A DNA stretch of 61,447 nt from an uncultured Verrucomicrobiota bacterium (GTDB lineage Bacteria > Verrucomicrobiota > Verrucomicrobiia > Limisphaerales > UBA9464), in the NCBI GenBank assembly GCA_903907925.1, contig CAIVQB010000070.1:1-61447 (forward strand), in the 5' to 3' direction. A model generated the notes under the pieces. It saw only the letters and a list, made by a program, of their open reading frames with translations, had not been told where the DNA came from and searched no databases. Made by a program: the position numbers and the translations under genes. The number at the start of each line of letters is the position of its first letter. Position 1 is the stretch's first letter. Below are positions 1 to 60,328 of the stretch, piece by piece.

Positions 1-336
<336 letters not shown>

Positions 337-378
337 ATTTTGCTTATGTGTGGTTTTCAGAGAACCGGAAGTTTTTTT

Positions 379-489
379 TGGTGGCTATAAAGCTGCGGCT
401 CGACCCGATCCCATCCCGAACTCGGCCGTCAAACGCAGCATTGCCGATGGTAGTGCATGTATAGCTTGCGCGAGAGTAGGTTGCCGCCT
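379..489 (+). rRNA. 5S ribosomal RNA
   Basis: This is a roughly 111-base 5S rRNA. The GGTGGC start pairs with the GTTGCCGCC end to form helix I, and the conserved CCCATCCCGAACTCGG core of loops B/C is at about 409-424. It sits about 40 nt after the 23S end and is followed by an intrinsic terminator, so it closes the rRNA operon. The ends are estimated to within a few bases. Confidence 0.95.
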
Positions 490-496
490 TCCTTTT

Positions 497-8889: not shown

Positions 8890-10257
8890 TCACGGCGCAT
8901 CGACCAGACGATAGTACACGGCTGCAGACCCGATTTCCTGGGCCTGATCCACTTCGCTGGTGGTGGCGTTGATCGGATTTCCAACTGGGCTCCATGTGTG
9001 CAGATCGGTCGTCGCCTCCAGTTGATACCGCAACCCGATGGTGACGGTGAACTGTAGCTGCAATTGACCATTCTCCCGTTTTGCCGTGGCGATTGGAGGA
9101 ACAGACGCTTGATCGTCGGGAGATTGAACCAGGATTTCGGGAATGGAGAGATAGCCGGACCCTGAGTTTTGAATGGTCAGCGAGGTGACTTTTCCGTTGG
9201 CAATGGTGGCCGTGGCGGTGGCGCCGGTGCCGCTGCCGCCCACGATTTCGACGGTGGGAATGCCGGTGTACCCGGTGCCGCCGTCGGTCAGAATGATCGC
9301 GATAACCTGGCCGTTGGCCAGCAGTGGAACGCCCGTCGCCGCGCGGGGCTGGGGCGGATCAATCTTGTTGAGGACGATGGTGTGGGAGAATCCGGCGGCA
9401 ATGGCGGTGATGCCGCTCAACTGCGACGGAACCAGGGTTTCGCCGGATTCATTGCCGCCCCAGGCGACCACCGTGCCGTCGGCCTTCAACGCCACCGTGT
9501 GATGGCGTCCCGCGGAGATTGCCACGACGCCGGTCAGGTCCGGCGGGACATTGGTCTGGCCCGAGTCGTTGTCGCCCCAGGCCACAACGGTTCCGTCCGC
9601 CTTCAAGGCCGCCGAATGATAGGCACCGGCGGCGACTCCCATGATGCCGGTGAGGCCCGGTGGAACCGTCGCCTGACCGAAGAAATTGAACCCCCAGGCG
9701 GTCACTGTCCCATCGCGTCGAAGGGCGATGACATGCGAATCGCCGGACGCCACCGCCACCGCGTTGGTGAGGTCGACCGGAACATTGGTCTGGCCAAACT
9801 GGTTGTAGCCCCAGGCCACCACCGACCCGTCATCGCGCACCGCGACGGTGTGGCCGTAACCGGCGGCGACGTGGGCGACACCGGTCAGGCCCGGCGGGAC
9901 CACGGTCTGATCGTAGTTGGTGTTGCCCCAGGTAACGACGGTCCCGTTTTGTCGGACGGCCACCACGGTGTTCCAACCGGCACCGATGGCCTTCACGTCG
10001 TGGAGGTCGGCGGGAATATTCCCCTGGCCATACCCGTTCCATCCCCAGACCGAGACGGTTCCGTCCGATCGCAGGGCGACGTTGTGATAGGCCCCGGCGG
10101 CGATCGCGGTCACCAGCGACAGGCGAATCGGAACGTTGGTCTGATTGTATTGATTGCTGCCCCAGGCGATGACCGTGCCGCCTCGCGCGGGAAGCCATGC
10201 CGCCCAGAGTGCGAGGCCGGCGATCCAGAGTCGTGCAATTCGGAAAAACGTAGCCAT
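8890..10257 (-). CDS. Secreted RCC1-repeat beta-propeller protein
   Basis: This is a 455-aa exported protein. After a signal peptide (about 26 aa), seven tandem RCC1-type repeats of exactly 39 residues run from about residue 27 to 300. Each begins G-[TS]-V-x-x-W-G and ends with A-G-x-x-H-x-x-A/V-L. Seven repeats make one complete seven-bladed propeller. A Gly/Thr-rich module follows (GGTGYTGIPTVEIVGG, then GSGYLSIPE), and then a C-terminal domain ending ATTDLHTWSPV...YYRLVDAP, which is common at the end of verrucomicrobial exported proteins. The function is unknown. It converges with the hscB gene. Confidence 0.88.
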   Translation of the reverse strand: MATFFRIARLWIAGLALWAAWLPARGGTVIAWGSNQYNQTNVPIRLSLVTAIAAGAYHNVALRSDGTVSVWGWNGYGQGNIPADLHDVKAIGAGWNTVVAVRQNGTVVTWGNTNYDQTVVPPGLTGVAHVAAGYGHTVAVRDDGSVVAWGYNQFGQTNVPVDLTNAVAVASGDSHVIALRRDGTVTAWGFNFFGQATVPPGLTGIMGVAAGAYHSAALKADGTVVAWGDNDSGQTNVPPDLTGVVAISAGRHHTVALKADGTVVAWGGNESGETLVPSQLSGITAIAAGFSHTIVLNKIDPPQPRAATGVPLLANGQVIAIILTDGGTGYTGIPTVEIVGGSGTGATATATIANGKVTSLTIQNSGSGYLSIPEILVQSPDDQASVPPIATAKRENGQLQLQFTVTIGLRYQLEATTDLHTWSPVGNPINATTSEVDQAQEIGSAAVYYRLVDAP

Positions 10258-15256: not shown

Positions 15257-15330
15257 TGGCTGGCCGACATGGATTCGAACCATGAATAAGGGCTCCAAAG
15301 GCCCCTGTGTTACCATTACACCATCGGCCA
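15257..15330 (-). tRNA. tRNA-Gln (anticodon TTG)
   Basis: Read on the minus strand, a full cloverleaf starts TGGCCGA and closes with TCGGCCA, a discriminator G and an encoded CCA (15259-15257). The anticodon loop CTTTGGA carries TTG at positions 34-36 on a GGGGC/GCCCT stem. The T-loop TTCGAAT is present. The 74-nt length is normal. Confidence 0.96.
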
Positions 15331-29015: not shown

Positions 29016-29121
29016 CCACCGAGACGCGCCATTCGGGCGCCACGGGTGAACTGTTTTCGCCCGTGTGAATTCGCACACGACTAACAACACAACATTGAAA
29101 AGTGGTTCAGGAGGAACTGAC

Positions 29122-30255
29122 ATGATGAACAAGTGGACAATTGCATTGGCCGCCACCGGAGTGGTTAGCCTCGCCTCGGCAGTGCTCGCGGAAGAATCGC
29201 ACCCGGTTAACACCCTGCTGCCCGCAACGACTCTCAGTGGCTACGTCGACACGTCGGCCATCTGGAATTTGGGCACTGGCAACAACCAGGCCAATCGCTT
29301 CGTCAACACTGGCGCAAACCGCCAGGACGGCTTCAACGTCGACGTGGTGAAGATCGCCCTCGAGAAGCCCCTCGACGAGGGAACCTGGTCGGCTGGTTAC
29401 AAGACCGAACTCTGGTTTGGACCGGACGCCGGTGCCTTGCCGGGCAGCCTCAGCGGCGGCCTCGCTGTCAAACAGGCTTATGTCGCGCTCCGCGCCCCGG
29501 TGGGCAACGGCCTCGACATCAAGATGGGCCAGTTCGACCCGATCATCGGGTATGAAGTTGCCGACTCCAATGGCAACCCGAACTTCAGCCGCTCCTTCGG
29601 CTTCGCTCTCGAACCGTTGAGCCACACCGGTGTGCTCCTCGCCTATCAGTTCTCCGACATGATCGGTGCGACTGCCGGCGTTGCTGACACGGGATTTGGT
29701 GTCATCAATGCCCGGGCCAACGCGTTTGCCCCGGCTGGCCAGGGCGAATCCATCAAGACCTACATGGCCGGCCTCACGGTCAAGGCTCCTGAGAGCATGG
29801 GTTGGCTCGCTGGTTCCTCCCTGTATGCCGGCGTCGTTGACGGCGGCGTCGTGGGTGCCAAGGACTCGCTCAACCTGTACGTCGGCGCGTCGATCTCGAC
29901 CCCGATCAAGGCCCTGAGCCTCGGCGTTGCGTACGACTACCTCGCCAACGGCATTTTCGCCAAGTCCTATGGCAATGCGGTTGCGGTCTACGCCACCTAC
30001 TCGCTCAGCGAGAAGTTGAAGGCCACGGTTCGTGAAGAGTACGCCACCTCGAGCGGTGGTGCCTTCTTCGCCGCTGACAACGACAAGATCGTCGGCAGCA
30101 CGCTGACCCTCGACTACTCCCTCTGGGCGAACGTCGTCACCCGCGCGGAATTCCGCTGGGATCACGCTGCCAACAGCAGTGGCTCCACTCCGTTCGGGAT
30201 TGGCAACAAGCGCAACGACTACAGCCTCGCTCTGAACGTCATCTACAAGTTCTAA
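29122..30255 (+). CDS. Outer-membrane beta-barrel porin (OmpL-like, bbp2 family)
   Basis: This 377-aa outer-membrane protein has a signal peptide of about 23 aa (ending V-L-A). The mature part is made of alternating beta strands (for example LSGYVDTSAIWNLG, DIKMGQFDPIIGYEV, TVREEYATSSGG) and ends in the aromatic strand LNVIYKF, with a terminal Phe as in outer-membrane barrels. It fits the putative beta-barrel porin-2 family. The preceding Shine-Dalgarno (AGGAGG) and the very regular codon use suggest a highly expressed gene. A strong terminator follows. Confidence 0.88.
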   Translation: MMNKWTIALAATGVVSLASAVLAEESHPVNTLLPATTLSGYVDTSAIWNLGTGNNQANRFVNTGANRQDGFNVDVVKIALEKPLDEGTWSAGYKTELWFGPDAGALPGSLSGGLAVKQAYVALRAPVGNGLDIKMGQFDPIIGYEVADSNGNPNFSRSFGFALEPLSHTGVLLAYQFSDMIGATAGVADTGFGVINARANAFAPAGQGESIKTYMAGLTVKAPESMGWLAGSSLYAGVVDGGVVGAKDSLNLYVGASISTPIKALSLGVAYDYLANGIFAKSYGNAVAVYATYSLSEKLKATVREEYATSSGGAFFAADNDKIVGSTLTLDYSLWANVVTRAEFRWDHAANSSGSTPFGIGNKRNDYSLALNVIYKF

Positions 30256-30388: not shown

Positions 30389-30404
30389 TTAACGTTTCTT
30401 TAAC
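30389..30404 (+). promoter_or_regulatory. Direct repeat TTAAC upstream of kdpA (possible response-regulator box)
   Basis: TTAAC occurs at 30389-30393 and again at 30400-30404, an exact 11-bp period. One helical turn between half-sites is typical of OmpR/PhoB-family operators. KdpE, encoded at the end of the operon, belongs to that family. The repeat is about 58 bp before kdpA. Confidence 0.45.
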
Positions 30405-30461
30405 CTCCCCCCGGCCTGTTTTAATTACCCCGCACCGGGCTCGTCGGAGATAGCTGGACGC

Positions 30462-32147
30462 ATGAGTGAACGCGACTGGCTACAACTGGTGATCTACTTC
30501 GGGAGCCTGACCCTGCTGACCCCGCTGCTCGGCGGCTGGATGCATCGGGTCTATTCGGACGGCTCCCATTGGCTCAAATCCATCCTGGGCCCCATCGAAC
30601 GGCTCCTCTACCGGCTCGGTGGATGCGATCCGACGGCACCGATGAACTGGCGCCAGTACGCCGGCGCGTTGCTGGCCTTCAACCTTCTCGGATTCCTCGT
30701 CCTCCTCGGGCTTCAACTCCTGCAACACCGCCTGCCGTTCAATCCCCAGGATCTTCCGGCCGTTCCACTGGAGCTCGCGGTCAACACCGCCATGAGTTTC
30801 ATGACCAACACCAACTGGCAGGCCTACTCCGGTGAGGCGGTCATGAGTTACCTGACCCAATTCGCCGGATTGACGGTGCAGAACTTCCTCTCGGCCGCCA
30901 CCGGAATGGCCGTCCTCCTCGCACTCGCCCGCGGTCTCGCCGCCCGCGAAGGAACCTCCCTCGGGAACTTCTGGGCCGATCTCGTCCGCTCGGTGCTCTA
31001 CATCCTTCTCCCGCTCTCGCTGATCTTCGCCGTCGTCCTGGTGTCACAGGGCGTGGTCCAAACCTTTTCGCCCTACGCCACCGTTGTTTCATTGGAGGGC
31101 TCGCCGCACTCCATTCCGCTCGGACCCGCGGCATCGCAGATTGCCATCAAACAGCTCGGAACCAACGGCGGCGGGTTCTTCGGCGCGAACTCCGCGCATC
31201 CGTTCGAGAACCCGAATCCGCTGACGAACTTCCTGGAGATGCTCGCCATCCTGCTGCTGCCGGCCGGACTGGTGAATCTCTACGGACGGATGGTCGGCTC
31301 ACGCCGCCACGGCTGGGCCTTGTACGGCGCAATGCTGGCCTTGTTGCTCATGACCCTGGCGATCGGCCTCGCGGGCGAATTCCAACCCAACCCAAGCTTC
31401 GGCGGACTCGCCAACCTCGAAGGCAAGGAAACCCGTTTCGGAATCGTGAACAGCGTCCTCTGGGCGGGTGCCACCACCGCCGCGTCGAATGGTTCGGTCA
31501 ACGCCATGCACGATAGTCTCTCGCCACTCGGTGGATTGATGTGCCTGGTCAATCTCGTTCTCGGCGAAGTCGTGTTTGGCGGCGTCGGCGCCGGCCTCTA
31601 CGGAATGTTGATGTACGTCATCATCACCGTCTTCATCGCCGGCCTCATGGTGGGGCGCACCCCGGAATACCTAGGCAAGAAGATCGGCAAAACCGAGATC
31701 ATCTGGGCGATGATCGCCACTCTGGTTCCCTTCGCCTTCCTGCTGGTGTTCTCGGCCATCGCCGCGGTCAGCGCCCCCGGGCTTGCGAGTCTCAACAACC
31801 AGGGACCCCACGGCCTGAGCGAAATCCTCTACGCCTTCGCCTCCATGGTTGGCAACAACGGCAGCGCCTTCGCCGGACTGAACGCGAACACCTCCTTCTA
31901 CAACAACCTGGGAACGATCGCCCTCTGTGTGGGCCGGTTCGCCGTCATTCTCCCCGCGCTTGCCATCGCCGGCGCGATGGCGCCGAAGAAGATTTCGCCG
32001 CCGTCCTCCGGCACGTTTCCCACCGACGGTCCGATGTTCCTCGTCCTCCTGGTGTTCGTGGTGCTGATCGTTTCGGGCCTGACCCATTTCCCGGCCCTCA
32101 CCCTCGGTCCCATCGTCGAACACTTCCTCCTTGGCCGCACGTTTTGA
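30462..32147 (+). CDS. kdpA: Potassium-transporting ATPase subunit KdpA
   Basis: This 561-aa integral membrane protein is the potassium channel-like subunit of the high-affinity Kdp pump. About ten membrane helices are visible, and the selectivity-filter region [18 protein letters not shown] is near residues 230-247. The other P-loops include the [14 protein letters not shown] and [12 protein letters not shown] blocks. The length fits the family. A kdpF is not visible upstream. The GGAG just before the ATG could serve as a ribosome site. Confidence 0.97.
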
Positions 32148-32185: not shown

Positions 32186-34273
32186 ATGAACCCCAAGAGT
32201 TCCATCTTCGATCCCACCCTGATGCGGCCGGCCTGCATCGGCGCGCTGCGCAAACTCGATCCCCGGGCGCTCTGGGAAAACCCGGTGATGTTGATCACCG
32301 AAATCGGTGCCGCCGTCTGCACCGGCGTGGTCATCCACGATCTCACACTCCACGCGTTCTCCGGCTTCAACCTGCAGATCACGCTCTGGCTGTGGTTCAC
32401 GGTGTTGTTCGCCAACTTCGCCGAAGCCCTCGCTGAGGGACGCGGACGCGCGCAGGCCGACGCCCTCAGAAAAGCCCGCGCCCACACCGAGGCCCGGCGG
32501 CAGACCGCGAACGGTGAGGAACGGGTCGCCGCACCGCTCCTGCGCAAGGGCGACCGGGTCATTTGCGAGACTGGCGACATCATCCCCGCCGATGGCGACG
32601 TGGTGGAGGGCATCGCCAGCGTCGATGAATCCGCCATCACCGGGGAATCCGCACCGGTCATCCGCGAAAGCGGCGGCGACCGCAGCGCCGTCACTGGTGG
32701 TACCCGGGTCATCAGCGATCGCATCGTCATCCGGATCACCAGCGAGCCCGGGAAGACATTTCTCGACCGGATGATCGCCATGGTTGAAGGCGCCCGCCGT
32801 CAGAAGACGCCCAATGAAATCGCCCTGACCATCCTGTTGGTGGCGACCACGGCGATCTTCATTCTCGCGGTTTTCACCCTGCCGGGATTCGCCGCCTACA
32901 GCGAAAAGGCCGCCGGACAGCCGGGCTCGGCCCACCTCACGCTGCCCGTTCTCATCTCGCTCCTGGTCTGCCTGATTCCCACCACCATCGGCGGGTTGCT
33001 CAGTGCCATCGGCATCAGTGGCATCGACCGGCTCATCCGCCGCAACGTTCTCGCCACCTCGGGCCGGGCCGTCGAGGCGGCCGGGGACATCGATGTACTG
33101 CTGCTCGACAAGACGGGCACGATCACGCTGGGCAACCGCATGGCGTCCCGCTTCGTGGCCGCGCCAGGCATCAGTGAGGAGCAACTTGCCGAAGCCGCCC
33201 AGCTCGCCTCCCTCGCCGACGAAACCCCGGAAGGCCGCAGCATCGTGGTGCTGGCCAAACAGCAATTCGCCCTGCGCGGCCGCGATTTCGCACCGGAACA
33301 TGCGACCTTCGTGCCGTTCACCGCGCAGACGCGGATGAGCGGCGTCGACCTCGATCGCCCCGGCAGCCGGGCCCGGATCATTCGCAAGGGCGCTGCAGCC
33401 TCCATCGAGGCCTGGGTGGACCGCCTCGGTGGCACGTTTCCAAAGGCCGTCGCCGATGCCGTCGAAGCAGTGGCCAACTCGGGCGGAACACCGCTGGTGG
33501 TCGCCGAGGGTGCCACGGTTCTTGGTGTCATTGAGTTGAAGGACGTGGTCAAGGGCGGCATTCGCGAACGCTTTGCCCAATTGCGCCGCATGGGCATTCG
33601 CACCGTCATGGTCACCGGCGACAATCCCCTCACCGCGGCCGCGATCGCCGCTGAGGCGGGCGTGGATGATTTCATGGCCCAGGCGAAGCCCGAGGACAAA
33701 TTGAAGCGGATTCGCGACGAACAGGCCGCCGGACATCTTGTGGCGATGACCGGTGACGGCACCAACGACGCGCCGGCGCTCGCCCAGGCCGATGTCGGCG
33801 TCGCGATGAACACCGGCACCCAGGCGGCGCGCGAGGCCGGGAACATGGTCGATCTCGACAGCAACCCGACCAAGCTCATCGAGATCGTCGAGATCGGAAA
33901 GCAACTGCTGATGACCCGCGGCGCACTGACGACCTTCAGCATTGCCAATGATGTCGCGAAGTATTTCGCCATTCTTCCCGCCATGTTCCTGGGCCTCTAC
34001 GCCATGGCGGGCAGCAAGACGGGACCCCTCGCGGCAATGAACATCATGGGACTGGCCTCGCCCCAGAGTGCCATTCTCAGCGCGGTCATCTTCAATGCGC
34101 TGATCATCATCGCCCTCATCCCGCTGGCGCTACGCGGCGTCAACTACCGGGCGGTCGGTGCCAGCATCCTCCTGCGCAACAATCTCCTCATCTACGGACT
34201 GGGAGGCCTCATCGCCCCGTTCATCGGCATCAAGGCGATCGACGTCCTCGTCACCGTACTGCATCTCGCCTGA
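32186..34273 (+). CDS. kdpB: Potassium-transporting P-type ATPase subunit KdpB
   Basis: This 695-aa P-type ATPase is the energising subunit of the Kdp pump. The phosphorylation motif DKTGT has Asp308, the actuator motif TGES ([10 protein letters not shown]) is near residue 155, and the hinge [16 protein letters not shown] is near residues 526-541. Seven membrane helices are distributed as in the family. The start is ATG 32186; the longer frame to 31541 overlaps kdpA out of frame. A 38-bp gap separates it from kdpA. Confidence 0.97.
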
Positions 34274-34304: not shown

Positions 34305-34496
34305 ATGAATCTCTACCACTCCACGCTTCAGGGCCTGCACCAGGCGAAAGAAGAAAGCCGCCGGCGGCGATTGGAGGAAACTGCGGCCGCAGCCTTTCGC
34401 CGTTCGACCGCCCCGATCCGCTCCTCGACCGCCCCGCGCGCCGCCCGGCACCTGCCGGGCCCGGCCTCGCCTCGAGTGCAATCCGCTCTCGCCTGA
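34305..34496 (+). CDS. Small basic ORF between kdpB and kdpC
   Basis: This 63-aa ORF is not recognised. It is hydrophilic and strongly basic, with an Arg-rich N-terminal helix (LHQAKEESRRRRLEET) and a Pro/Arg/Ser-rich tail (STAPRAARHLPGP). It begins 31 nt after the kdpB stop and ends 22 nt before kdpC. Its pyrimidine-rich leader just upstream of ATG matches the leaders of kdpB and kdpC. It is not KdpF, which is a hydrophobic single-helix peptide. It may be a lineage-specific Kdp accessory, or a spurious ORF in a high-GC operon gap. Confidence 0.5.
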   Translation: MNLYHSTLQGLHQAKEESRRRRLEETAAAAFRRSTAPIRSSTAPRAARHLPGPASPRVQSALA

Positions 34497-34518: not shown

Positions 34519-35118
34519 ATGAAAACGTTCCTCGTCTCAGCCCGTTTCCTGTTGGTCCTCACCCTCCTCACCGGCGGGCTGTATCCGCTTCTCGTCACCG
34601 GAATCGCACGGGTTTCCTTCCCGCATCAGGCGGAGGGAAGCCTGTTGAACCACGGGACGAACCTCGTGGGATCGGCCTTGTTTTCGCAACGCACCACGGG
34701 CCCGACCTATTTCTGGCCGCGACCGTCGGCCGGCGATGACGGCACCAACTACGTGACCGTGGCCTCCTCGGCCAGCAACAAGGGACCGACCGCCGGTGAC
34801 TGGACCACCAACGTCCTGCAACGCATCGACGATTTCCGGAAGGCGCACGCCCTCGCTCCTGGCATTCCGGTTCCCGCGGACATGGTTTTTGCCAGCGGCA
34901 GCGGACTCGATCCCCACATCTCACCCGCATCAGCACGCATCCAACTCCAGCGTGTCGCGACCGCCCGCAAACTGGACGCGCAACAACGTCAACGCCTCGA
35001 CGCCGAGGTGGAGGCGCGAATCGAACCGCCGACCCTTGGATTCCTCGGCGAACCGCGGATTAACGTCCTTCAACTCAATCTCGCGGTGGACGCGATCTTC
35101 AAGGCCGGGAGCCCGTGA
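34519..35118 (+). CDS. kdpC: Potassium-transporting ATPase subunit KdpC
   Basis: This 199-aa subunit stabilises the KdpB-KdpA complex. An N-terminal membrane helix (about 10-30, LLVLTLLTGGLYPLLVTG) is followed by the typical FPHQAEGSLL, GSALFSQ and ASGSGLDPHISPASARIQ motifs (about residues 126-143). The C-terminus VLQLNLAVDAIF is also typical. It is part of the kdp operon. Confidence 0.96.
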   Translation: MKTFLVSARFLLVLTLLTGGLYPLLVTGIARVSFPHQAEGSLLNHGTNLVGSALFSQRTTGPTYFWPRPSAGDDGTNYVTVASSASNKGPTAGDWTTNVLQRIDDFRKAHALAPGIPVPADMVFASGSGLDPHISPASARIQLQRVATARKLDAQQRQRLDAEVEARIEPPTLGFLGEPRINVLQLNLAVDAIFKAGSP

Positions 35119-35177: not shown

Positions 35178-35540
35178 ATGGATTCGACCCCGCATCAGTG
35201 CCACCGAACAGAGTTCTACGACGCGCGGCGTGACACCCACCTGCTCCTGGAGGTGGACGGGGAACAGGTGGTGATTCGCGCCACCCGGGACAGCTATTCC
35301 GCGGCGCGGCGGGCTTGCTTTATTCGCGAACTCGTCGCCGAAGGCTTCCTGCCCGATGAATATCAATGGTCCAACACCGATTCTCCGTGGGCGGTCTACG
35401 GCGTGCGCTGGTGCATTGACCGCCGTTGGCTCGTTCTTCCGCGGGAGGTCGTCAAACGGACCTCGCGTTGGGCGCTGAGAATGTGGCTGGTCGGTACCCT
35501 CCTTTGGCTGGGAATGCTGGTTGGGTTGTTGTTTCATTGA
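35178..35540 (+). CDS. Hypothetical C-terminally membrane-anchored protein in the kdp operon
   Basis: This is a 120-aa protein that I do not recognise, encoded between kdpC and kdpD. The soluble N-terminal part has 'HLLLEVDGEQVVIRATRDSYSAARRACFIRELV'. One hydrophobic helix closes the protein (MWLVGTLLWLGMLVGLLF). A GTG at 35115, whose codon overlaps the kdpC stop (GTGA), would give a 141-aa version with a low-complexity extension; the start is therefore uncertain. Position and size suggest a Kdp accessory or regulatory membrane protein. Confidence 0.6.
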   Translation: MDSTPHQCHRTEFYDARRDTHLLLEVDGEQVVIRATRDSYSAARRACFIRELVAEGFLPDEYQWSNTDSPWAVYGVRWCIDRRWLVLPREVVKRTSRWALRMWLVGTLLWLGMLVGLLFH

Positions 35541-35549
35541 TCGAACGTC

Positions 35550-38270
35550 ATGGACGAAATCCCGCGCAAGGATCCCGACGCGCTGCTCGCCGCCATTCAG
35601 CGGGAGGAGAAGGCGGAGCATCGTGGACGGCTCAAGGTCTTCCTCGGAATGAGCGCCGGTGTGGGAAAAACCTACGCCATGCTGGAAGCCGCCCAAAAGG
35701 CGCGGCGCGAAGGGCGGGATGTGGTCATCGGCTACGTGGAATCCCACGGACGCAAGGAGACGGACGCCCTGTGTGAAGGCCTTCCGCTGATTCCCCGGCG
35801 CACTCTTGAACACCGCGGAGTTACGGTTTCCGAGTTCGACCTCGATGCGGTTCTGGCCCGGCGACCCGCCCTGGCATTGGTGGACGAATTTGCCCACAGC
35901 AATCTTCCCGGGCTCCGCCATCCCAAACGCTGGCAGGATGTCATGGAACTGCTCGACGCGGGCATCGACGTCTACACCACGCTCAACGTCCAGCACATCG
36001 AGAGTCGCACCGACACGGTCCGGCAGATCACCGGATCGACCATCTACGAAACCGTTCCCGACCGGGTGTTGGACGGGGCGGAGATCGAATTGATCGACCT
36101 GCCGCCCGAGGAATTGATGGCGCGATTGGAGGCGGGGAAGGTCTATCAGGGCGAACGGGCCGAGGCGGCGCTGTTTCACTTCTTCCGCGAAGGCAACCTC
36201 AAAGCCCTCCGCGAAATCGCATTGCGTTACGCCGCCGGCCGGGTGGGTCGGGACGTTCAGGATTACCTGCAGGCGATGCAGATTGAAGGGCCGTGGAAAT
36301 CCGGCGATCGACTGCTGGTCGCGGTCAGCGCCAGCCCGACTTCCGCGCAACTGGTGCGCCGCACCCGGGCGCTCTCCGAGGCCCTGCATTGCGGGTGGAT
36401 CGCCACCCATGTCGATTGCCCTTCGACCCCTCAGCAAGCGGCCGCACCCCAGCTCAGTCAGAATCTGAATCTGGCCCGGGAACTGGGAGCGGAGGTGATC
36501 ACCACCGCGGACGAGGATGTCGTCTCCGGAATTCTGCGAGTCGCCCGGCAGCACAACGTCACCCACCTGGTGGTCGGCAAGCCGGGCGGGAAGGGATTCT
36601 CCCGGTTGCGGGGAACCTGGTATTTGAACCGCTTGATCCGCCGGAGCGGCCCGGTGGATGTCCTCCTGGTCCGGCCCGATGCCGCACCGGACGGCGCCGT
36701 GGTCAGTAGCTCGGTGCTGCCTCCGGATCGCGGTGAAACACACCGCTATCAGAACCGCAGTACGGCCGAGCAATACGGGACCGCCATCGGAGTCGTCGCC
36801 GCCGTAAGTTTCGCCGCCGCCCTCCTGGCCCCGTGGCTGGGCTATCGATCGGTGGCATTGATCTACCTGCTCACCGTCGTCGCCCTCGCCTTGTTTTTGG
36901 GCCGCGGACCCATCCTGCTCGCCGCGGCATTCAGCGCGCTGACCTGGAACTTCTTTTTCCTGCCGCCCCGCTTCACGTTCTACATCACCAGCGTGGAGGA
37001 TGGCATGATGTTCGGCCTCTACTTCGTGGTGGCGGCCGTCCTCGGTCAACTGGTCGCCCGCATCCGCGCGGCCCAGGACTCCAATCACCGGCGCGAAGAA
37101 CGCGCCACGGCGCTCTACCTTCTTACCCGAGATCTCGCCGAGGCAGGTGATCGAACGGCGTTGGTGGCCACGCTGGCGGCGCAGGTGGGCCAGAGTTTCA
37201 ACGCGCGCGTTGCGGTTCTCTTTCCGAACGAATCCGGCGCTCTCGCGGAATCCGCAAGCCCGGGCGGAACGCTGTCGCTGTCCGGAAAGGAACGCGGGGT
37301 CGCCGAATGGGCCCATCAACACGGACGCGCCGCCGGACGTTTCACCGACAATCTGCCCCTTGCCGAGGTCCTGCACCTTCCGCTCCGCGTCGGTAGTCGT
37401 GCCATCGGAGTCTTGTCCGTCGACGTCCCGGAGGACGTTTCTCTCAGCCTGGAGCAACGTGATCTCCTCGACGCCTTTGCCCGCCAGGGTGCCCTGGTGA
37501 TCGATCGGCAGCGGTTGCGGGAAACCGAGAGCGACAGCCGGCTGGTGGCGGAATCCGAACGGCTCGGGAAGGCGCTGCTCAATTCGATTTCCCACGAATT
37601 GCGAACCCCCCTCGCCGTCATCACCGCCGCCGCCTCCAGTCTGCGTGAAACCCCGGGTGCCACCGGGATTCAAACCACGCTCACCGGTGAAATCCAGGAG
37701 GCAACCGACCGACTGAACCGGCTCGTGCGAAACCTGCTCGATGTCGCACGGATGGAATCCGGCCATCTCCGGGCGCAATGCGAATGGACGGATCCCGCCG
37801 ACCTCTGCCGCACGGCGGTCCGCAACACCGCCAGCCGGCTGCGCCACCACGCGCTGTCCGTCCAGATCCCGGACGGTCTGCCCCTCATCCGCATCGATTC
37901 GGTCCTGATCGGTCAGGCGCTGGAGAATCTTCTGGTCAACGCTGCCGCCCACACGCCCGAGGGAACCGAGGTCAGCCTGGCCGCCCGCGTGGCGGAGGGT
38001 GTGTTGTGGGTTGAAGTGAGTGATCGCGGTCCCGGAATCGCGCCGGCGGATCTGGCGCGCGTTTTCGACAAGTTCTATCGCGCCGGGAATGCGCCGGCTG
38101 GCGGCACCGGATTGGGACTGTCCATCGCCCGCGGATTCGTCGAGGCCTGCCAGGGAAAAATCGAGGTCGCGAATCGTCCGGGAGGAGGAACACTCTTCGC
38201 GATCCGATTGCCGATCGAACCCGCGCCGTTTGCACCCAGCGCCCCCGCCGACCCGGGAGAATCCGCCTGA
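35550..38270 (+). CDS. kdpD: Sensor histidine kinase KdpD
   Basis: This 906-aa kinase senses K+ limitation and controls KdpE. The N-terminal KdpD domain has Walker A GMSAGVGKT (residues 33-41) and Walker B LALVDEFAHSN (about 108-118). A Usp-type domain (about 250-370) is followed by four closely spaced membrane helices (about 410-500) of the DUF4118 type and a GAF-like region. The kinase core follows, with His682 in SHELRTPLAV and an HATPase domain (ENLLVNAAAHTPEG, DRGPGIAP, GTGLGLSIARG). The start is 9 nt after the stop of the small ORF. It overlaps kdpE by one base. Confidence 0.97.
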   Translation: MDEIPRKDPDALLAAIQREEKAEHRGRLKVFLGMSAGVGKTYAMLEAAQKARREGRDVVIGYVESHGRKETDALCEGLPLIPRRTLEHRGVTVSEFDLDAVLARRPALALVDEFAHSNLPGLRHPKRWQDVMELLDAGIDVYTTLNVQHIESRTDTVRQITGSTIYETVPDRVLDGAEIELIDLPPEELMARLEAGKVYQGERAEAALFHFFREGNLKALREIALRYAAGRVGRDVQDYLQAMQIEGPWKSGDRLLVAVSASPTSAQLVRRTRALSEALHCGWIATHVDCPSTPQQAAAPQLSQNLNLARELGAEVITTADEDVVSGILRVARQHNVTHLVVGKPGGKGFSRLRGTWYLNRLIRRSGPVDVLLVRPDAAPDGAVVSSSVLPPDRGETHRYQNRSTAEQYGTAIGVVAAVSFAAALLAPWLGYRSVALIYLLTVVALALFLGRGPILLAAAFSALTWNFFFLPPRFTFYITSVEDGMMFGLYFVVAAVLGQLVARIRAAQDSNHRREERATALYLLTRDLAEAGDRTALVATLAAQVGQSFNARVAVLFPNESGALAESASPGGTLSLSGKERGVAEWAHQHGRAAGRFTDNLPLAEVLHLPLRVGSRAIGVLSVDVPEDVSLSLEQRDLLDAFARQGALVIDRQRLRETESDSRLVAESERLGKALLNSISHELRTPLAVITAAASSLRETPGATGIQTTLTGEIQEATDRLNRLVRNLLDVARMESGHLRAQCEWTDPADLCRTAVRNTASRLRHHALSVQIPDGLPLIRIDSVLIGQALENLLVNAAAHTPEGTEVSLAARVAEGVLWVEVSDRGPGIAPADLARVFDKFYRAGNAPAGGTGLGLSIARGFVEACQGKIEVANRPGGGTLFAIRLPIEPAPFAPSAPADPGESA

Positions 38271-38977
38271 TGCCCGCTGACACCGCCACGCCCCCGCCGC
38301 TGATCCTGGTGATCGACGACGAACCGCAGATCCGCCGTCTGCTCGTCCACACTCTGGAGGCCGCCGGAAATCGTGTGCTCACCGCCGCCACCGGTGCCGA
38401 CGGACAGATCCAGGCCGCCCAAAACCGTCCCAACCTTATTCTCCTCGACCTCGGCCTGCCCGATCATCCCGGTCTCGAAGTGCTGTGCCGGCTTCGCGAA
38501 TGGACCGACGTGCCGGTTCTGGTACTCACCGTGGTGGACGGAGAGGCGGAAAAGATCGCCGCGCTGGATGCCGGGGCGAATGACTTCATCACCAAACCGT
38601 TCGGTACCGGTGAACTGCTCGCCCGGATTCGAGCCGCCCTGCGACTCGCTCACCGCAGTTCCGATCCGCCGGTGGTCCAGTGCGGTCCACTGACCGTCGA
38701 CCTCTCCAGCCGTCGGGTCACGGTGCACGGGCGCGAGATTTCACTCACCGACACTGAGTACCGGCTTCTAAAAACTCTGGTCCGGCACGCGGGAAAGGTC
38801 CTGACCCATCGGCATCTGCTCCGGGAAGTCTGGGGTCCGCAGTCCGAATCCCAAACCGCCTACCTCCGGGTCTACATGGTCCATCTGCGGAACAAAATCG
38901 AAGATGATCCATCCGATCCCAAACTGCTGTTGACCGAACCCGGCGTGGGTTATCGCCTGACCCTGCCCTCGGTTTGA
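38270..38977 (+). CDS. kdpE: Response regulator KdpE
   Basis: This 235-aa OmpR/PhoB-type regulator has a receiver domain (acidic pair DDE at 16-18, phospho-acceptor Asp60 in LILLDLGLPD, KPFGTGELLARI near 107) and a C-terminal winged helix (LTDTEYRLLKTLVRHAGKVLTH, RVYMVHLRNKIEDDP). The start codon overlaps the kdpD stop (TGATG). It would bind a direct repeat in front of kdpA; a TTAAC-N6-TTAAC repeat is present there. Confidence 0.97.
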   Translation: MPADTATPPPLILVIDDEPQIRRLLVHTLEAAGNRVLTAATGADGQIQAAQNRPNLILLDLGLPDHPGLEVLCRLREWTDVPVLVLTVVDGEAEKIAALDAGANDFITKPFGTGELLARIRAALRLAHRSSDPPVVQCGPLTVDLSSRRVTVHGREISLTDTEYRLLKTLVRHAGKVLTHRHLLREVWGPQSESQTAYLRVYMVHLRNKIEDDPSDPKLLLTEPGVGYRLTLPSV

Positions 38978-60253: not shown

Positions 60254-60328
60254 GCCAGCTTAGCTCAGCGGTAGAGCAACGGTTTTGTAAACCGTGGGTC
60301 GTCGGTTCAATCCCGACAGCTGGCTCCA
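60254..60328 (+). tRNA. tRNA-Thr (anticodon TGT)
   Basis: A full cloverleaf starts GCCAGCT and closes with AGCTGGC, a discriminator T and an encoded CCA. The anticodon loop TTTGTAA on the ACGGT/ACCGT stem gives TGT. The T-loop TTCAATC is present. A broken integrase-like gene lies about 75 nt downstream. Confidence 0.96.

Follow-up and report, generated by a model that had tools for sequence, protein, structure and literature searches.

A study of Escherichia coli describes the KdpE site as a pair of 6-bp direct repeats, TTTATA and TTTACA, placed 5 bp apart and with an invariant leading TT (PMC3264566). The E. coli kdpFABC operon is also linked to phosphate limitation and PhoB in a second report (PMC5458449). 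In mycobacteria, KdpF is co-transcribed with kdpABC and regulated by KdpDE, as a third report states (PMC3618439). KdpF is a membrane peptide of ~27-30 aa that ends in PEKF and is encoded just before kdpA. In the kdpABGCD operon of Anabaena, the gene for KdpG lies between kdpB and kdpC. Usp proteins are accessory and are encoded in the kdpC-kdpD interval of kdp operons; this interval carries universal-stress-protein-like genes in loci L057, L063 and L053 (L053 by Pfam, the other two by eye).

Here we describe ORF63, a small protein encoded between kdpB and kdpC, as KdpG is. It lies in a window of 61,447 nucleotides, the whole stretch of DNA analysed, from an uncultured Verrucomicrobiota bacterium of the order Limisphaerales. 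The operon order is kdpA-kdpB-ORF63-kdpC-ORF141-kdpD-kdpE (Table 1). ORF63 resembles KdpF, as characterized in the mycobacterial report (PMC3618439), in its small size and in being produced together with the Kdp pump. In contrast to KdpF, it is soluble, has 63 aa and lacks a PEKF-type motif. No comparable small protein of kdp or K+ starvation was found in the open-access literature searched. On the basis of its relatives and their promoters, ORF63 probably belongs to the K+-limitation (KdpE-type) regulon as a trans-acting, lineage-specific member.

Table 1. Features of the window, with coordinates, strand and the basis of each assignment
Feature	Position	Strand	Basis
3' end of 23S rRNA and 5S rRNA gene	1..492		
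tRNA	15260..15330	-	
BBP2 (OmpL-like) beta-barrel porin gene, directly 5' of the kdp promoter	29065..30255	+	Pfam
kdp box, TTAAC-N6-TTAAC-N16-TTAATTACC	30389..30431	+	73 nt before kdpA; sole box found able to serve ORF63
kdpA	30462..32147	+	tblastn to relatives, reading
kdpB	32186..34273	+	tblastn to relatives, reading
ORF63, small basic protein (MNLY family)	34305..34496	+	homologues in G006, G008, G015, G021 and G161; codon-position pattern
Conserved block of ORF63, residues 1-39; predicted helix, residues 3 to 35	34305..34421	+	alignment, AlphaFold2
kdpC	34519..35118	+	NCBIfam kdpC equivalogs above cut-off
ORF141, orphan gene between kdpC and kdpD	35178..35540 (GTG alternative start 35115)	+	no Pfam family
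kdpD, sensor kinase	35550..38270	+	Pfam KdpD
kdpE, OmpR-type response regulator	38270..38977	+	Pfam Response_reg and Trans_reg_C
tRNA	60254..60325	+	

ORF63 runs for 63 aa from the ATG at 34305 to the stop at 34494-34496. Its start codon follows the kdpB stop (34273) by 31 nt, and 22 nt separate its end from the kdpC ATG (34519), in agreement with an earlier sequence-only reading that it fits this gap. The frame extends open in the 5' direction into kdpB (GTG 34158), and ATG 34305 is the start common to the family in the alignment. With 11 K/R against 4 D/E, a pI of 11.8 and a GRAVY of -0.75, the protein bears out the description in that reading of a hydrophilic, strongly basic, soluble product. 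It has no membrane segment: no hydrophobic 19-residue window was found in it (best Kyte-Doolittle mean -0.16), and the further statement that it is not KdpF stands on this value as well as on sequence and place. By eye, the leaders of ORF63, KdpB and KdpC showed no Shine-Dalgarno motif, a result of low information that fits a shared leader type. No KdpF-like peptide was found in the window operon. Just before kdpF, 12 of 17 kdp loci (L053, L056-L058, L060-L067) carry a second membrane-peptide-like ORF of ~27-30 aa, ~180-216 nt before kdpA and of the type MSDLIYLxxxxFFxxxxLYARxCExL; the operons of the window, G007 and G055 have neither this ORF nor a KdpF-like peptide.

The N-terminal ~40 residues of ORF63 (MNLYxSTLxGI...RR...MAAAxFR) were found again in five other genomes of the order. 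The family thus has six members, from G000 (the window genome), G006, G008, G015, G021 and G161, all draft assemblies. Residues M1, N2, L3, Y4, S6, T7 and G10 of the non-basic N-terminus are invariant in the alignment; the C-terminal third shows no confident alignment among members. A protein search of 58 relatives gave E<=0.01 in six genomes, the window genome and G033 included, and the N-terminus is common to four matches, with identities over the matched stretch of 57% (G006), 51% (G008), 53% (G021) and 47% (G015). A profile of the five members was then run on 320 genomes of the order, a search in which 19 candidates were scored per genome and weak members may escape. It returned seven genomes at E<=0.001: the five members, the non-member G048 and, from another family, G161, the sixth member (E 2.1e-12). 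When the N-terminus was searched for as a DNA pattern, the 320 genomes yielded five of the six members plus a single antisense match. A relaxed form of the pattern found exactly the six members in 313 genomes; the reversed-pattern control gave 0 in every result printed.

Applied to 315 genomes sampled from the class, the relaxed pattern recovered G000 and G008, the sole members in that draw. The profile was also run on 387 genomes of the phylum, with 16 candidates scored per genome, and returned the window and the non-member G570. Exact peptide patterns, whose reach is limited to close relatives, had 170 matches in a collection of 84,980 species, with four relatives, those of G006, G008, G015 and G021, all Verrucomicrobia MAGs. 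No relatives were found in viral contigs, phages or plasmids. Candidates from G033 (E 0.008), G010, G018, G048 and G570 were rejected as members for lack of the family start (MNLY). Also left out were a weak match in G109, antisense to an RnfC-like gene, and five further sites in the genome that contains the window (E 0.144 or worse).

The sequence-only reading had proposed a Ka/Ks check, and this found mainly synonymous change. Over codons 1-39, differences at codon positions 1/2/3 number 10/7/25 between G000 and G006 and 5/1/17 between G008 and G021, with dN/dS of 0.11 (dS 2.5, near saturation) and 0.06 (dS 1.3), respectively. Saturation leaves eight of the 15 member pairs with no finite dS, and the remaining five ratios lie between 0.20 and 0.45, so that finite values span 0.06 to 0.45. 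By this codon pattern, conservation acts on the protein and not on the DNA. ORF63 is a gene because its frame is conserved across genomes, and its status as a real protein gene under purifying selection is strongly supported.

Databases gave no name for the family. ORF63 has no match at E<=1 in Pfam, in contrast to the Usp accessory proteins, nor in NCBIfam, PHROG or PADLOC, and the family as a whole has none in Pfam, NCBIfam or PADLOC. Among four members scanned against PHROG, weak matches linked G006 to phrog_17821 (HTH; E 0.009, 17.1 bits) and G008 to phrog_926 (function not known; E 0.17). An RNA element at ORF63 was rejected, as no Rfam gathering-score match lies near it in the window; six related loci had none either. 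AlphaFold2 predicts one helix over residues 3-35 of ORF63, with a block pLDDT of 89-95 to residue 30 and a low-confidence tail beyond, and a helix over residues 3-53 of the G008 relative, confident to about residue 30. Foldseek gave no match at E<=10, and the best PDB sequence match, ribosomal protein uS12, is at chance level (E 0.28). An amphipathic membrane helix was rejected, since the moments of residues 3-34 rose above shuffles in none of the six members. ORF63 is thus predicted to be soluble and helical, with a pI of ~12 and no named family.

The place of ORF63 between kdpB and kdpC is peculiar to the window genome. KdpC was detected in 18 of the 58 relatives, own genome included, and ORF63 is absent from all 17 other B-C gaps that were read; the remaining one of 18, L029, has another gene order and was not readable. 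From the kdpB stop to the KdpC match there are at most 49 nt in the 17 gaps, versus 245 nt in the window. In G007, which belongs to the same genus and has the nearest KdpC (60%), the gap is 34 nt and lacks ORF63. KdpC is present in the same-genus genomes G003, G004, G005 and G007, in which no member was detected. A six-member HMM was run on 8,595 frames taken from the window and from 20 loci. It recovered the six members and nothing else near them in score (next E 0.28), and placed a member in one of the 16 other kdp loci scanned, that of G161, at another place.

The proposal that ORF63 is the B-C gene of related kdp operons was therefore abandoned, with 0 of 17 other gaps containing it, and with it the possibility of an operon-conserved B-C peptide or structural KdpFABC subunit. 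Absence from close relatives was the ground on which the sequence-only reading would have dropped its claim, and absence was found, both in the G007 gap and in all 15 scanned kdp loci other than that of G161. Most kdp-bearing relatives lack an ORF63-type gene. Members co-occur with kdpC in four of five cases, the window itself among the four, versus 18 of 58 genomes, which is weakly significant (P 0.029). What survives of the tie to kdp is the shared promoter sequence and the G161 operon; the tie via the B-C position is lost.

In G161 the gene order is kdpA-kdpB-kdpC-usp-member-uncharacterised gene-kdpD. The gene preceding the member matches Pfam Usp, and the member's stop overlaps the next start as ATGA. 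The other four relatives, in G006, G008, G015 and G021, lie away from kdp; with four of its six places there, the family must therefore act in trans. The G008 and G021 members occupy the same site, adjoining what we take to be a ROK-kinase-like gene, and the G015 member has a presumed beta-lactamase-like gene on one side and a presumed dehydrogenase-like gene on the other. The G006 member lies 3' of a presumably PhoD-like gene, next to a stretch (L050 1391-12396) with the look of a phosphate-starvation island, where genes that we take to be PhoA-, BtaA- and PhoD-like stand directly 5' of it. Neither kdpA nor kdpC was detected in the G006 assembly, which is 86% complete.

The relatives share a promoter element with kdp. 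The kdp-type box of the order is an 11-bp direct repeat, TTRAY-N6-TTDAY, followed by N16-TTRATT, and reads TTAACGTTTCTTTAAC-N16-TTAATTACCC in the window and TTGATACTTTTTTGAT-N16-TTGATTACCG in G003. Its half-site layout equals that of the E. coli KdpE site as given in that study (PMC3264566). It differs from the E. coli site and kdpFABC promoter in having TTRAY and not TTTAYA, in the TTRATT at a fixed distance, and in standing also before a small gene away from kdp. The form TTGAY-N6-TTGAY, then N16-TTGATT, was first noticed at the members, before the kdp promoters were inspected. In the window and the five member loci, the perfect double repeat occurs four times, each time just 5' of a member (G008, G006, G021, G015). 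A clear box is present in 16 of 17 kdp loci, and L065 has a weak site of 15.8 bits.

To score these sites, a weight matrix was trained on 15 kdp promoters, all member sites being excluded. Just 5' of the members it gives 23.0 bits (G008), 22.1 (G006), 26.8 (G021), 39.9 (G015) and 29.8 (G161). Other sites in the member loci reach at most 10.3 bits, except the G161 kdp promoter (52.5) and L053 9644 (-) (21.7), and the maximum over 20 million positions of random order-2 sequence was 16.7 bits. The window and the other 15 kdp loci, 624,520 positions in all, contain 17 sites that score above 20 bits. Of these, 15 stand before kdpA (14 in the training set), and the remaining two, in L056, diverge from each other and lie ~300 nt before a KdpE-like gene. 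The best further site has 18.6 bits. The L053 site at 9644 lies before kdpD in G161 and fronts a small membrane-like ORF (~9286-9534, -) without a Pfam match.

ORF63 has no box of its own within 600 nt 5' (best -7.6 bits) and therefore depends on that of the kdp operon, inside which it lies behind the box at 30389. The neighbouring orphan ORF141, which has a hydrophobic C-terminus, provides a specificity control. Its sole other match in the 58 relatives, G041:C137 (E 1.7e-13), adjoins what is presumably an NhaD-like antiporter gene and has no kdp box (best 1.7 bits); ORF141 was rejected as a second regulon gene because this one relative lacks the box.

A model made from the sequences of 16 kdp promoters was also run genome-wide, with strict filters, on 49 genomes of the family. 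At E<=0.1 it returned 14 sites, spread over 12 genomes: 13 precede kdpFA and the other precedes the G015 member (G015:C422:770-811). Eleven of the 13 kdpFA sites are training sites and two are new (G008:C48 and G070), which leaves three sites outside training, two of kdpFA and one of a member. The member sites of G006, G008 and G021 were not returned by this strict run. With default filters on the loci analysed, the model returned the sites of G015 (E 6.8e-6) and G021 (E 0.028), and did not return those of G006, G008 and G161 at E<=1; for these three the box is assigned by matrix score and position. The site at G008:C48 (L088) belongs to a second kdpA of G008, with its own kdp box and a transposase-like gene just 5'. 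Taken over the five relatives, the presence of a kdp promoter is strongly supported. Different genomic places combined with a kept kdp promoter suggest that the protein's use goes with K+ limitation and not with operon position.

In the window, ORF63 would be translated from the kdp transcript, its frame lying between those of KdpB and KdpC, and in the five relatives an own copy of the kdp-type promoter would drive the member. We infer that the box is bound by KdpE, which in the window is of OmpR type with receiver and Trans_reg_C domains; the phosphorylated form would bind, and low K+ would induce the gene. As possible partners of the protein, the sequence-only reading had named the pump, the kinase and RNA. 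The protein may act on the Kdp system itself. Its invariant N-terminus looks like a docking motif, and its Arg-rich middle suits an anionic partner: MNLYxST..G may dock on a Kdp protein, for example on cytosolic regions of KdpB or KdpD, where the basic helix may complete the contact, tuning pump activity or signalling under K+ scarcity. A modulator of KdpB or KdpD is our preferred, though tentative, reading over binding to RNA or ribosomes. It is possible, though rather unlikely, that the regulon protein has a nucleic-acid target, its basic helix binding rRNA, ribosomes or DNA as cell K+, a main counter-ion of RNA, falls. A pI of 10.2 to 11.8 and an Arg-rich helix in all six members are in keeping with such a target, as are the HTH DNA-binding match of G006 and the chance-level uS12 match; however, the invariant residues fall mainly in the non-basic N-terminus, the PHROG match is quite insecure and came from a single member out of the four scanned, and no fold match was obtained.

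The box might instead be read by another regulator of the OmpR/PhoB family, such as a PhoB-type protein, in an overlapping regulon, for example of phosphate limitation, that also drives kdp. This is unlikely. Direct repeats of 11 bp are used throughout the OmpR/PhoB family, and the report cited above links E. coli kdpFABC to phosphate limitation and PhoB (PMC5458449). Against this, the 49-genome run at E<=0.1 returned kdpFA promoters and one member gene only. By eye and by matrix, the G006 locus contains no second strong box, including before its genes presumed PhoA-, PhoD- and BtaA-like, although the member lies 3' of them. The Pho reading was reduced to an alternative because no box precedes the Pho-like genes and the box is that of kdp.

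A still less probable account of ORF63 in the window is that of a stray: a gene of the regulon that entered the kdp operon without keeping its own promoter and is now decaying. It is the sole copy without an own box, its C-terminal third is not alignable and its location is unique. However, the frame is intact, dN/dS against G006 over residues 1-39 is low, even with dS near saturation, and the fit between its neighbours is tight. That ORF63 is a frame left open by chance, as might be suspected of a short ORF in GC-rich DNA that other B-C gaps lack, is refuted by five homologues in which the protein is conserved while the codons have diverged.

With regulon membership as the favoured reading, ORF63 and its relatives form a new protein family, restricted to this lineage, within a known regulon; the promoter evidence for this is good. 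The regulon, usually described as the pump and its own regulators, thereby gains a soluble small protein with a recognizable control site, which also offers a small, concrete target for functional work. A by-product is a kdp promoter model that works for this order. It is a speculative but possible extension that this trans-acting small basic family, co-induced with the Kdp pump, aids endurance of low K+, either by replacing K+ on RNA and ribosomes or by gating KdpFABC or KdpD. If true, this would be an extra layer of the K+-limitation response, one not known from the E. coli model.
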